DNA from: Streptomyces macrolidinus
GTDB taxonomy: Bacteria > Actinomycetota > Actinomycetes > Streptomycetales > Streptomycetaceae
Direction of reading: 5' to 3'
Length of the DNA: 64,000 nucleotides
Assembly (NCBI RefSeq): GCF_023887685.1
Contig: NZ_JAMWMR010000005.1
Coordinates: 124,001-188,000, forward strand
Position numbers and translations under genes: made by a program. The notes beneath the pieces are model-generated. The model was not told the DNA's origin. It made no database searches and was given only the letters and a program-made list of their open reading frames with translations. Below, piece by piece: positions 26,662-58,969 of this stretch (its first letter is position 1; the number at the start of each line of letters is the position of its first letter).

Positions 26662-26971
26662 GCCTACGTCACCTCGGATGTTGAACTGTCGGATACGGAC
26701 CGGTGAGGAACCTAGTCGCCCCACACCTGGGGGGCCACGAGCAACACGCTTGCCCGTTCTCCCCCACTGCCTCAAGGGCGTGGGAGGTGCCCCCACTCGT
26801 CGGAGACTAGCGGGCAAGTCCGCCGGAGTCAGCGAGAACAGCGGAAAAGTCCTGGTCAGCCTCTGTCGAGACGGACTTTTGGGACATACTGCCCCGGATT
26901 CGCGGGTGGATCCACCCTCCAGCCCGCCCCGAAGCACCCGGCGCGGGGGCCTCGCGTGACTCCTGCGCGGG
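26662..26971. other. Gene-free stretch upstream of mihF and downstream of pyrF
   Basis: This 310-base gap must hold the mihF promoter. The visible structure is an inverted repeat CTTGCCCG (26749-26756) and CGGGCAAG (26811-26818) that encloses the 37-base dispersed repeat. CTAG tetramers occur at 26711 and 26807 but without matching terminal repeats. No gene is evident. Confidence 0.7.
26759..26795. repeat. 37-base dispersed intergenic repeat, copy A
   Basis: It matches the reverse complement of 57452-57488 at 36 of 37 positions. Internal CCCAC/GTGGG complementarity makes it palindromic. It is noncoding. Confidence 0.85.
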
Positions 26972-56401: not shown

Positions 56402-56571
56402 GTTCGTCCTTCTTCATCGTGTCGTACGGAAGTGGCTGGCTGTGGGGCAGAGCCTACCGGCGCTGCCGTTTCCTCAGCGAACCCATATACGGTACGGGGC
56501 ACACGCACGCGCTCGGCACATCCGACGCACGCGTACCGGTCGGCGGACGAGACGCATGAGGAGACAACCCC

Positions 56572-57393
56572 GTGGTCAGCCAGGAACAGCGGCGGCGACA
56601 GCTCGCCCGGGAGAAGTTCTTGCGGCAGCAGCAGCGGCGTACGGACGCCCGACGCAAGGCACGTGTGCGCAATTCCGTGATCGCGTCGGTGCTCGGCGTG
56701 GTCGTCGTGGGCAGCGTGGCGCTGTACGCGACCGACGCCTTCAAGGGCGACGACACCAAGGAGAACGCTGCGGCGGAGGTGACCCCGAGCGCCGAGCCCA
56801 CGCCCAGCAAGGCGCCGGACCCGTGCGAGAAGCCCGCTCCGGGCAAGGTCAAGTCGCTGAGCTGGAAGAAGGAGCCGGCGATGACCATCGACACGTCGGC
56901 GAAGTACACGATGAAGCTGGCGACCACCTGTGGTGACATCGGCATCGCGCTGAAGTCGGCGGCCCCGCACACCGTCAACTCGTTCAACTTCCTCGCGGGC
57001 GAAGGCTACTTCGACCACACCAAGTGCCACCGGCTCACCACCAACGGCATCTACGTGCTGCAGTGCGGTGACCCGAAGGGCATCGGCAACGGCGGTCCCG
57101 GCTACACGCTTCCGGACGAGAACCTCAAGGACAAGAGCCTGAAGAACAACGTGTATCCGGCGGGCACGGTCGCGATGGCGAACACGGGCCAGCCGCACAC
57201 CGGCGGCAGCCAGTTCTTCCTGGTCTACCAGGACAGTCAGTTGCCGCCCAGCTACACCCCGTTCGGGACCATCGACGAGAAGGGCCTGACGGTACTGAAG
57301 AAGATCGCCGCGGCCGGAGAGAGCACCGGAGCGGGTGACGGCGCACCGAACGCGACCGTGGTGATCGACAAGGCGACGGTGACGAAGTCCTAG
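56572..57393 (+). CDS. Membrane-anchored cyclophilin-type peptidyl-prolyl isomerase
   Basis: A 273-residue protein: a basic N-terminus (residues 1-32) and one membrane helix at 34-52 leave the catalytic domain (about 105-273) on the outside. The core QFFLVYQDSQLPPSYTPFG and GTVAMANTGQPHTGGS are the cyclophilin active-site blocks. GTG start preceded by GAGGAGAC. Its TAG stop lies within the CTAG that flanks the insertion at 57394, so element insertion left the protein intact. From memory, a ppiB-like gene sits here in mycobacteria as well. Confidence 0.93.
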   Translation: MVSQEQRRRQLAREKFLRQQQRRTDARRKARVRNSVIASVLGVVVVGSVALYATDAFKGDDTKENAAAEVTPSAEPTPSKAPDPCEKPAPGKVKSLSWKKEPAMTIDTSAKYTMKLATTCGDIGIALKSAAPHTVNSFNFLAGEGYFDHTKCHRLTTNGIYVLQCGDPKGIGNGGPGYTLPDENLKDKSLKNNVYPAGTVAMANTGQPHTGGSQFFLVYQDSQLPPSYTPFGTIDEKGLTVLKKIAAAGESTGAGDGAPNATVVIDKATVTKS

Positions 57394-57599
57394 GGCCTGT
57401 TGCGAAAGTCGCGTCGTTCGCCCGGAGGGTGGGCCTCGCGGCGTCCGGTGCTGGGGGCACCTCCCACGCCCTTCAGGCAGTGGGGGAGCATCGCAAGGCG
57501 GAGGGGCGCCCGCGCACTGGACGTACGCGGGCGATCCCGACAACGCGGCGAGGTGCCGTGCCGGGCGTCGCGAGGCAGACGGGACTTTCGCAACAGGCT
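57394..57599. mobile_element. 206-bp MITE-like element
   Basis: Both ends carry a 22-base inverted repeat, left GGCCTGTTGCGAAAGTC then GCGTC, right GACGG then GACTTTCGCAACAGGCT, matching at 20 of 22 positions. CTAG direct repeats flank both ends (57390-57393 and 57600-57603). A 4-base YTAR target duplication is typical of the IS5 group, so mobilisation by such a transposase is plausible. It has no gene; the overlapping short open frames start inside the inverted repeats. It also contains copy B of the 37-base dispersed repeat. Confidence 0.85.
57452..57488. repeat. 37-base dispersed intergenic repeat, copy B
   Basis: Reverse complement of 26759-26795 with one mismatch, placed inside the MITE-like element. 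Confidence 0.85.
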
Positions 57600-57739
57600 C
57601 TAGACCGTCAGCAGCGAAAGTTCGGTCGCGCGGGATGCGGACAGCCGCCCCGCCGGTCGCCTATGTTGGCCGTGACGAAACTGTGGACGATGCCCGGGGG
57701 CGCCAAGGCCCTCCGCAGGCATCATGTGGAGGAGGCGCT

Positions 57740-58969
57740 GTGAGCAGCGACCCGTGGGGCCGCGTCGACGAGACGGGGACCGTGTACGTGCGGACAGCCG
57801 ATGGCGAGCAGGTCGTCGGTTCGTGGCAGGCCGGCTCCCCCGAGGAGGCGTTGGCCTACTTCGAGCGCAAGTACGAGGGCCTGGTTGTGGAGATCGGCCT
57901 CCTCGAGCGGCGAGTGAAGACCACCGACCTGTCGGCGAAGGACGCCCAGGCCGCGATCGACCACCTGCGCGAGCAGGTGGACGCGCACCACGCGGTGGGC
58001 GACCTGGCCGCGCTGCGGACCCGCCTGGACAAGCTCGTGGAGACCGTCGAGGCGCGCCGCGAGGAGCGCAAGGTGCAGCGGGCCAAGCAGTCCGACGAGG
58101 CGCGCCACGCCAAGGAGGCACTGGTCACCGAGGCGGAGGAGCTGGCGCAGTCCGACCAGTGGCGGTCGGCCGGGGAGCGGCTGCGGGCGCTGGTGGACAC
58201 GTGGAAGGGTCTGCCGCGCCTGGACCGCAAGTCGGACGACGAACTGTGGCACCGCTTCTCGCACGCCCGCTCGGCGTTCTCCAAGCGCCGCAAGGCGCAC
58301 TTCGCGCAGCTCGACGCGCAGCGCGAGGACGCCCGCAAGGTCAAGGAGAAGCTGGTCGCCGAGGCCGAGGCGCTGTCGGGTTCGACGGACTGGGGTCCGA
58401 CGGCGGCGCGCTACCGCGAGCTGATGGCCGACTGGAAGGCCGCGGGCCGCGCCCAGCGCGAGCACGAGGACGATCTGTGGAACCGCTTCCGCGGCGCCCA
58501 GGACGTGTTCTTCGCCGCGCGCAGCTCGATCTTCGCCGAGCGCGACGCCGAGCAGGCCGAGAACCTCAAGCTGAAGGAGGAGTTGGCCGGGGAGGCGGAG
58601 AAGCTGCTGCCGGTCACGGACCTGAAGTCCGCGCGGTCCGCCTTCCGTTCGATCAACGAGCGCTGGGAGGCCATCGGCCATGTGCCGCGGGACGCGCGCC
58701 CGAAGGTCGAGGGCCGGATGCACACGGTCGAGCGGGCCATCCAGGAGGCCGAGGAGGCGGAGTGGCGCCGCACGAACCCGGAGGCACGCGCGCGTGCCGC
58801 GGGTCTCACCGGTCAACTCCAGGCGGCCGTGGACAAGTTGACGGGCCAGATCGAGCAGGCTCGGGCCGCGGGTAACACCGCGAAGGCCGAGAAGCTTCAG
58901 CGGGAGCTGGAGGGCCGTCAGGCGCTGCTGGACCAGGCTCTGAAGGGTCTTCAGGAGTTCGGCGGCTGA
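57740..58969 (+). CDS. DUF349 domain protein
   Basis: A 409-residue, highly charged, almost fully helical protein with three DUF349 repeats, marked by SDDELWHRFSHARSAFSKRR, HEDDLWNRFRGAQDVFFAAR and a third, weaker copy near RSAFRSINERWEAIGHVP. Predicted coiled coil, cytoplasmic. GGAGGAGG lies 6 bases before the GTG. It is divergent from nothing and ends at a shared terminator with relA. Function in Streptomyces unknown; DUF349 proteins are linked to ribosome or nucleotide stress responses. Confidence 0.85.
   Translation: MSSDPWGRVDETGTVYVRTADGEQVVGSWQAGSPEEALAYFERKYEGLVVEIGLLERRVKTTDLSAKDAQAAIDHLREQVDAHHAVGDLAALRTRLDKLVETVEARREERKVQRAKQSDEARHAKEALVTEAEELAQSDQWRSAGERLRALVDTWKGLPRLDRKSDDELWHRFSHARSAFSKRRKAHFAQLDAQREDARKVKEKLVAEAEALSGSTDWGPTAARYRELMADWKAAGRAQREHEDDLWNRFRGAQDVFFAARSSIFAERDAEQAENLKLKEELAGEAEKLLPVTDLKSARSAFRSINERWEAIGHVPRDARPKVEGRMHTVERAIQEAEEAEWRRTNPEARARAAGLTGQLQAAVDKLTGQIEQARAAGNTAKAEKLQRELEGRQALLDQALKGLQEFGG

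Follow-up and report, generated by a model that had tools for sequence, protein, structure and literature searches.

A small inverted-repeat element at a cyclophilin stop codon of Streptomyces macrolidinus and the folded body it shares with elements bearing other ends

The usual definition of a miniature inverted-repeat transposable element (MITE) rests on the ends that it shares with a single helper. MITEs of type II have the terminal inverted repeat alone in common with an autonomous element, according to the relevant sections of PMC10969869. The nearest description that we found to the elements studied here is that of the BOX elements of Streptococcus, which in the sections of PMC3049150 devoted to them are composite repeats built from end modules and optional internal ones, with a predicted RNA hairpin; in S. 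suis, the boxB modules are enclosed by either of two pairs of ends, boxA/C or boxE/F. The Correia/NEMIS elements of Neisseria have inverted-repeat ends, TA termini and a stem-loop transcript for which cleavage by RNase III has been proposed, and ERIC and RUP are likewise small, with TA termini and a stem-loop, the ends of RUP resembling those of IS630-Spn1 (PMC2229807, passages on these families). Both MITE reviews (PMC10969869, PMC2229807) describe stem-loop transcripts, and the word 'Streptomyces' is absent from their main texts.

Here we analysed an element in a stretch of 64,000 nucleotides of S. macrolidinus DNA (the window; all positions refer to it). With BOX it shares the combination of end modules, optional internal modules and a predicted hairpin. 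Compared by description, it differs in that its copies have in common a folded core whose internal loop is conserved in sequence, in that some ends are TA-flanked ends of insertion sequences (IS), and in its range over several actinobacterial families. It resembles Correia/NEMIS in its inverted-repeat ends and TA termini, and ERIC and RUP in its size, termini and stem-loop; unlike the case here, the passages of PMC2229807 on these families, which for ERIC and RUP concern other hosts, describe no exchange of ends, again as compared by description. Unlike type II MITEs in general, as portrayed in the relevant sections of PMC10969869, its interior is conserved across end types and genera and covaries in a strand-specific way. 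We regard the element as a MITE in respect of its ends and, in respect of its body, as a structured mobile module. We found no description of these elements in one open-access library, where two core strings do not occur and two shorter reverse-strand strings are listed for 11 papers about other subjects; the group is seemingly undescribed. The features of the locus are as follows.

56572-57393, + strand: cyclophilin-type peptidyl-prolyl isomerase gene (PF00160, E 2.7e-24), with its stop at the element edge
57390-57393, no strand: left CTAG (sequence, ORF list); the duplicated target TA is 57391-57392 and the TAG is the cyclophilin stop
57393-57600, + strand: MITE with forward-oriented body (inverted-repeat ends, TA/TA flanks, empty site in relatives, sibling copies)
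57393-57414, + strand: left terminal inverted repeat, end type A, its first 17 bases recurring at the ends of two IS elements (L101 exactly, L108 with one mismatch at each end)
57438-57451, + strand: 5' arm of the body stem (GCGGCGTCCGGTGC), covarying helix 1 as counted on other copies
57452-57487, + strand: internally inserted hairpin module of 36 nt, TGGGGG..GGGGGA
57490-57505, + strand: conserved core, 5' side (ATCGCAAGGCGGAGGG), from cross-copy comparison
57507-57533, + strand: central hairpin, its stem rewritten between families; helix 3 of the covariation test
57538-57552, + strand: conserved core, 3' side (CGACAACGCGGCGAG), from cross-copy comparison
57558-57571, + strand: 3' arm of the body stem (GTGCCGGGCGTCGC), covariation counted on other copies
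57579-57600, - strand: right terminal inverted repeat, pairing with the left repeat
57600-57603, no strand: right CTAG, the target copy (sequence)
57740-58969, + strand: DUF349 gene (PF03993, E 2.3e-59), start inferred from GTGAGCAGCGACCCG, which is kept in relatives

The sequence at 57390-57603 reads CTA-GGGCCTGTTGCGAAAGTC...GACTTTCGCAACAGGCTC-TAG. The string GGCCTGTTGCGAAAGTC lies at 57394-57410 on the forward strand and again, with one mismatch, at 57583-57599 on the reverse strand; allowing up to three mismatches, shuffled windows held 0.12 matches on average, and two or more matches occurred in 2 of 100 shuffles. The 22-base arms starting from 57394 and from 57599 are paired at 20 of 22 positions, with mismatches at bases 1 and 18. 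The inverted-repeat ends and CTAG flanks confirm the clean MITE insertion of the preliminary description, and its size of 206 bp holds if CTAG is the target, the element measuring 208 bp (57393-57600) if the target is TA. Its longest ORFs, of 67 codons, run through the element on both strands and are much too short to encode a transposase, and we rejected its assignment as an IS4/5-type insertion sequence. A search for a phage origin of the element gave no match. Folded as single-stranded DNA, the element stretch reached -82.4 kcal/mol versus -53.2 kcal/mol in shuffles (z -8.8).

To place the insertion among relatives, species genomes were scanned with the cyclophilin protein, and the best 80 of 462 were taken as named loci. 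The element site is empty in all 80, where a conserved downstream motif follows the cyclophilin stop after 27-95 bases versus 239 in the window; of 24 further relatives' loci, 13 have a similarly short stop-to-motif distance (12-83) and the other 11 are unoriented and uninformative. Within the sampled relatives, among which the very nearest may be missing, the insertion is confined to this lineage. As had been described, the left TAG (57391-57393) closes the cyclophilin ORF (273 aa), with which it is in frame. The further claim that insertion duplicated this stop stands only in that a stop would remain after clean excision: the cyclophilin stop is TGA in 80/80 named relatives, the CTAG target is missing from all of them, and the joined window flanks read TCCTAGACC where the relative L080, for one, has TCCTGACC. 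Because the window TAG consists of the target TA plus the first base of the element, G, and the flanks differ from those of relatives, the stop was not simply copied. The TGA of relatives implies either that the CTAG target was gained by a one-base change before insertion, which is the simplest account, or that the duplication was inexact. The element would then have inserted at a CTAG formed by the cyclophilin stop region, duplicating the TA. A promoter or terminator for the DUF349 gene, which the element had been proposed to bring in, was not found by a scan of the element (expecting 0.0 promoters and 0.2 terminators in shuffles, and covering Streptomyces promoters poorly), and the conserved motif precedes DUF349 in all 80 element-free relatives. 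The DUF349 start is placed at 57635 by the ORF list, not at 57740.

The position at a stop codon invites the reading that the element chose it, a tempting interpretation that the wider counts correct. Among 39 own-genome elements with enough flank, 14 abut a stop made of the target TA and the first base of the element, and one of these makes stops on both sides. In a null sample of 464 kb there were 65 CTAG sites, and 13 of the 47 non-coding ones were stop codons (gene calls followed a simple codon-composition rule, G+C at third positions), so that by counts there is no clear excess and we rejected stop-codon targeting. Such a location is expected because CTAG is rare in a high-GC genome and, outside coding sequence, is often a stop codon; the stop-codon position is a by-product of CTAG rarity. 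At one locus (L268, G000:C1:423500-427100) two convergent genes flank an F-type element, and each has its TAG stop at one edge of the element.

In the own genome, BLAST with the element (scoring 40 of 145 candidates) returned at least 53 matches, including near full-length relatives at 86-87% identity. Further copies thus exist, and they bear other ends: ends matching GGCCTGTTGCGAAAGT with up to two mismatches are paired solely at the window site. The own-genome table has 41 rows, of which the F-type L013 duplicates L263, leaving 40 distinct elements; 37 of these hold the folded core, which the short L212, L030 and L281 lack. They fall into seven end types, A to G, and have TA flanks on both sides in 28 cases and on one side in 4. 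The body of the window copy is 84-89% identical over 87-122 bases to that of several copies with other ends. This shared body consists of a stem (for example GGCGTCTGGTGC / GTGCCAGGCGTC), a pair of conserved sequences opposite one another, and a central hairpin whose stem varies. In form 1 (22/40 elements) the conserved sequences are GCAAGGCGGAG and GACAACGCGGCGAG; in form 2 (15/40) the core is replaced by TCTCGG.GTGCCGG.CGGAAGCCC / GTGCGGCGAGAG. Type-A-like ends (1-2 mismatches) occur on form 2 in L104 and L105 (G095, G104) and on form 1 in L061 (G041), which indicates that ends and bodies combine. Four type D copies at different sites are identical over 162 bp, which we read as a probable sign of past mobility. 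Two arrangements of the flanks were also seen. A type D and a type B element stand side by side with one TA common to both (L231, G000:C105:48900-49600), and the type B elements L004, L199 and L275 are flanked by CA/TG or TG/CA, not TA/TA, so that the palindrome continues across the target, as though the two sides had changed jointly.

The body also appears able to take up extra hairpins of ~33-36 nt at fixed internal sites. The 36-nt module of the window copy is missing at the equivalent place in L006 and L008, and elements of types B, C, E, F and G have similar modules at one of two internal positions or at both. A second module type has 22 own-genome matches, all inside these elements by coordinates, and was thereby rejected as a free genome-wide repeat; three of the 22 lie in two elements outside the own-genome table, one cut by a contig end and the other with ends read by eye. 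Another copy of the 36-nt module, at 26759-26796 on the reverse strand of the window, lies outside any recognised element, between CTAGTCGCC and GGAGACTAG, and may be what is left of an element with another end type.

IS elements with the same ends were found in other species. The pattern CTAGGGCCTGTTGCGAAAGT (up to one mismatch) is present in 34 of 150 genus genomes, own included, and some of its pairs enclose IS-sized DNA. L101 (G142) has both type A ends exact, 942 bp between the TAs and a transposase split over two frames; in L108 (G055) the TAs enclose 943 bp, each end has one mismatch to the first 17 bases of the window copy, and one open frame encodes an IS4/5-type transposase (PF13340 + PF01609). 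Neither contains the MITE core sequence, so the element, having in common with these autonomous relatives its ends alone, classifies as a type II MITE, and we rejected a simple internal-deletion origin. A core is present at L383 (G004:C1) merely because a separate element adjoins the IS there; this element has the ends GGGGGTGTCTTGTCGATCAGG and seems to bear a third kind of internal hairpin. A search of the own draft genome turned up no IS with type A ends, only a fragmented transposase relative at 66% identity and weaker ones.

For end type D, the first 15 bases (AGGGCTGTCCCGTAA) are common to three 885-bp IS copies in G010, and the one examined (L436) has a 260-residue transposase frame matching HTH_Tnp_4, DDE_Tnp_4 and DDE_Tnp_1. 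This protein could not be aligned to the type A transposase by BLASTP (E 9), and both match DDE_Tnp_1 (PF01609), which makes them distant members of one superfamily and not unrelated. Judged from the terminal sequences, the same body appears to be carried on the ends of at least two transposase subfamilies. Weaker IS-end matches were obtained for two more end types (L383, 17/20; L395, 18/20), the IS termini being assignable for just a few of 30 transposase loci. We infer that the window element was mobilised in trans, by the IS4/5-type DDE transposase of an IS that shares its ~17-bp ends, and that each kind of end would serve as the handle for another transposase.

The range of the body was estimated with a covariance model, R1, built from 15 own-genome sequences. 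Within the genus it detected the body, at E up to 1e-5, in 33 of 41 genomes (counting the own one). Across the class, matches came from 28 of 148 genomes, which represent 12 of 81 genera, the own genus among them. In the window copy the match to the model is limited to 57485-57557. Counts per genome are lower bounds, with a maximum of at least 52 in one genus genome, which illustrates the practical use of the model. At least 52 and at least 27 body matches were seen in G012 and G299, respectively. By eye, 19 of 20 body matches outside the genus have the core GCAAGGC and one has GCGAGGC, with differing stems and ends. Ends were recovered for 68 of 87 body matches in the genus set, of which 54 have TA on at least one side, 40 on both sides and 14 on neither. 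Together with own ends and 8 ends from outside the genus these gave 62 distinct 18-base ends, some of them out of frame by a few bases. Single linkage resolved them into 16 groups at 14/18 matches, 10 at 13 and 8 at 12, so the number of end types varies with the clustering threshold. The ends would accordingly form a partly discrete and partly graded series, and as far as they are continuous, gradual drift accounts for part of the variety. Changes of end type may be due to recombination or to a gradual drift in step with the helpers.

Covariation in the body was scored on an R1 alignment of 44 selected sequences, of which 23 came from the genus and 21 from beyond it. Changes on both sides were present in 33 of 39 stem pairs, with double changes in 322 alignment cells. 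In this alignment, which was fitted to the structure, 91.4% of cells were paired versus 69.5% in shuffles, and the covariation score was 0.583 versus 0.173, reached by none of 500 shuffles and by no shifted register (up to 0.144). The kind of mismatch offers an independent indication. On the body-forward strand of the 44 sequences G.U mismatches outnumbered A.C by 214 to 9 (shuffles 230:77), G.U being in excess in 43 of the 44 and A.C in none. A second count used an aligner that scores all mismatches alike. For 51 distinct genus elements (own included) it gave G.U:A.C ratios of 375:17 for the inner part and 24:4 for the outer 20 bases. The ratio was 65:6 in 20 bodies from outside the genus, and in 34 own elements oriented by the core motif alone the inner and outer ratios were 194:18 and 19:1. 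Other mismatches numbered 285 inner and 25 outer in the genus, 148 outside it, and 175 inner and 10 outer in the own elements; this large class stems in part from the internal loop. Orientation in the genus and class sets is the strand of the model, which is preferred by a wide margin (in L302, 111.8 versus 43.4 bits). Own-genome ratios under different orientation rules were 241:21 (41 rows, one duplicate), 205:38 (no strict orientation) and 213:19 (34 distinct elements, core motif).

A double-stranded palindrome is blind to this difference, because a G.T on one strand is an A.C on the other, and a single strand can distinguish the two. The excess of G.U over A.C therefore suggests that a folded single strand of the body, most likely RNA, seems to be under selection. 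The body thus combines the covariation and the one-strand wobble pairs expected of a new structured RNA, the former in an alignment fitted to the model. Rfam 15 gave no covariance-model match at E up to 1 in window positions 56500-58500, and for 12 other loci it gave two microRNA matches far below the gathering score. In tandem contexts 16 own-genome elements lie sense and 9 antisense to neighbouring genes, and among 29 genus loci with approximate element bounds the numbers are 5 and 11. We rejected a steady orientation preference, which a simple 3'-UTR role predicts. With sense and antisense about equal, a benefit to the neighbour's mRNA alone is unlikely, and the step under selection may be one of the element's own.

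Taken together, we consider it quite probable that the window element is a type II MITE belonging to a modular group, in which one strand-specific folded body sits on many ends and is moved in trans. An ordinary functionless MITE, with IS ends around neutral DNA and a hairpin that merely follows from the palindromic ends, would share the small size, inverted-repeat ends and TA flanks, and long stem-loops are common in bacterial MITEs according to portions of PMC10969869 and PMC2229807. Such an element would hardly have an interior conserved over 12 genera and under unlike ends, with covarying stems and strand-biased mismatches, that is lacking from IS elements with the same ends, and we regard this account as quite improbable. 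Slightly less improbable is retention of the element as a terminator or stabilising 3' end of the cyclophilin mRNA. Its place at the stop codon and its very stable hairpin would fit, but the scan found no T-tailed terminator, all 80 named relatives do without the element, and the rarity of CTAG accounts for the stop position.

The strand bias itself can be read in other ways. Most G.U pairs are derivable from G-C through C-to-T changes in a GC-rich element, so that the excess could be mutational, arising on one strand exposed in transposition or transcription with no selection on structure, and column make-up by itself yields 3:1. The observed 24:1 nevertheless lies above every shuffle (maximum 3.8:1), A.C is still rare outside the genus (65:6), and the 322 doubly changed cells and the central hairpin, rewritten but still paired, are poorly explained by mutation, which makes this reading very improbable. 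Folded single-stranded DNA is recognised by its structure in integron attC sites and in IS200/IS605, and the top strand of the body could similarly fold and be recognised during mobilisation. That the strand bias comes without a steady orientation bias to neighbouring genes, that it extends to the outer 20 bases (24:4) and that the asymmetric core gives the hairpin a polarity are all consistent with this; however, the TA duplication and IS ends indicate DDE transposition of double-stranded DNA, and G.T in DNA is a weaker pair than G.U in RNA. Selection on single-stranded DNA is unlikely, then, and selection on the RNA of the body-forward strand would remain our preferred account of the bias.

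A broader proposal, which we advance tentatively and with somewhat more doubt than confidence, is that of a mobile structured module of actinobacteria: a body of ~100 nt, one strand of which is selected in folded form, as RNA or single-stranded DNA, for its own spread, and which repeatedly takes the ends of different transposase subfamilies and travels between helpers and across bacterial families. As the conserved body is found under many ends, the body and not the ends would constitute the lineage, and the group would offer a case, open to testing, of helper switching by a non-coding mobile element. A role for a folded single strand in a bacterial DNA transposon, as suggested by the strand bias of the wobble pairs, would be surprising.

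Matches to the element were also present in 51 plasmid records, all from Streptomyces. In a plasmid record of Streptomyces sp. NBC_01450 (NZ_CP109481.1, a linear 2.35-Mb replicon) a near full-length relative (L429) has 87% identity. Plasmids are a possible route for the element between species.
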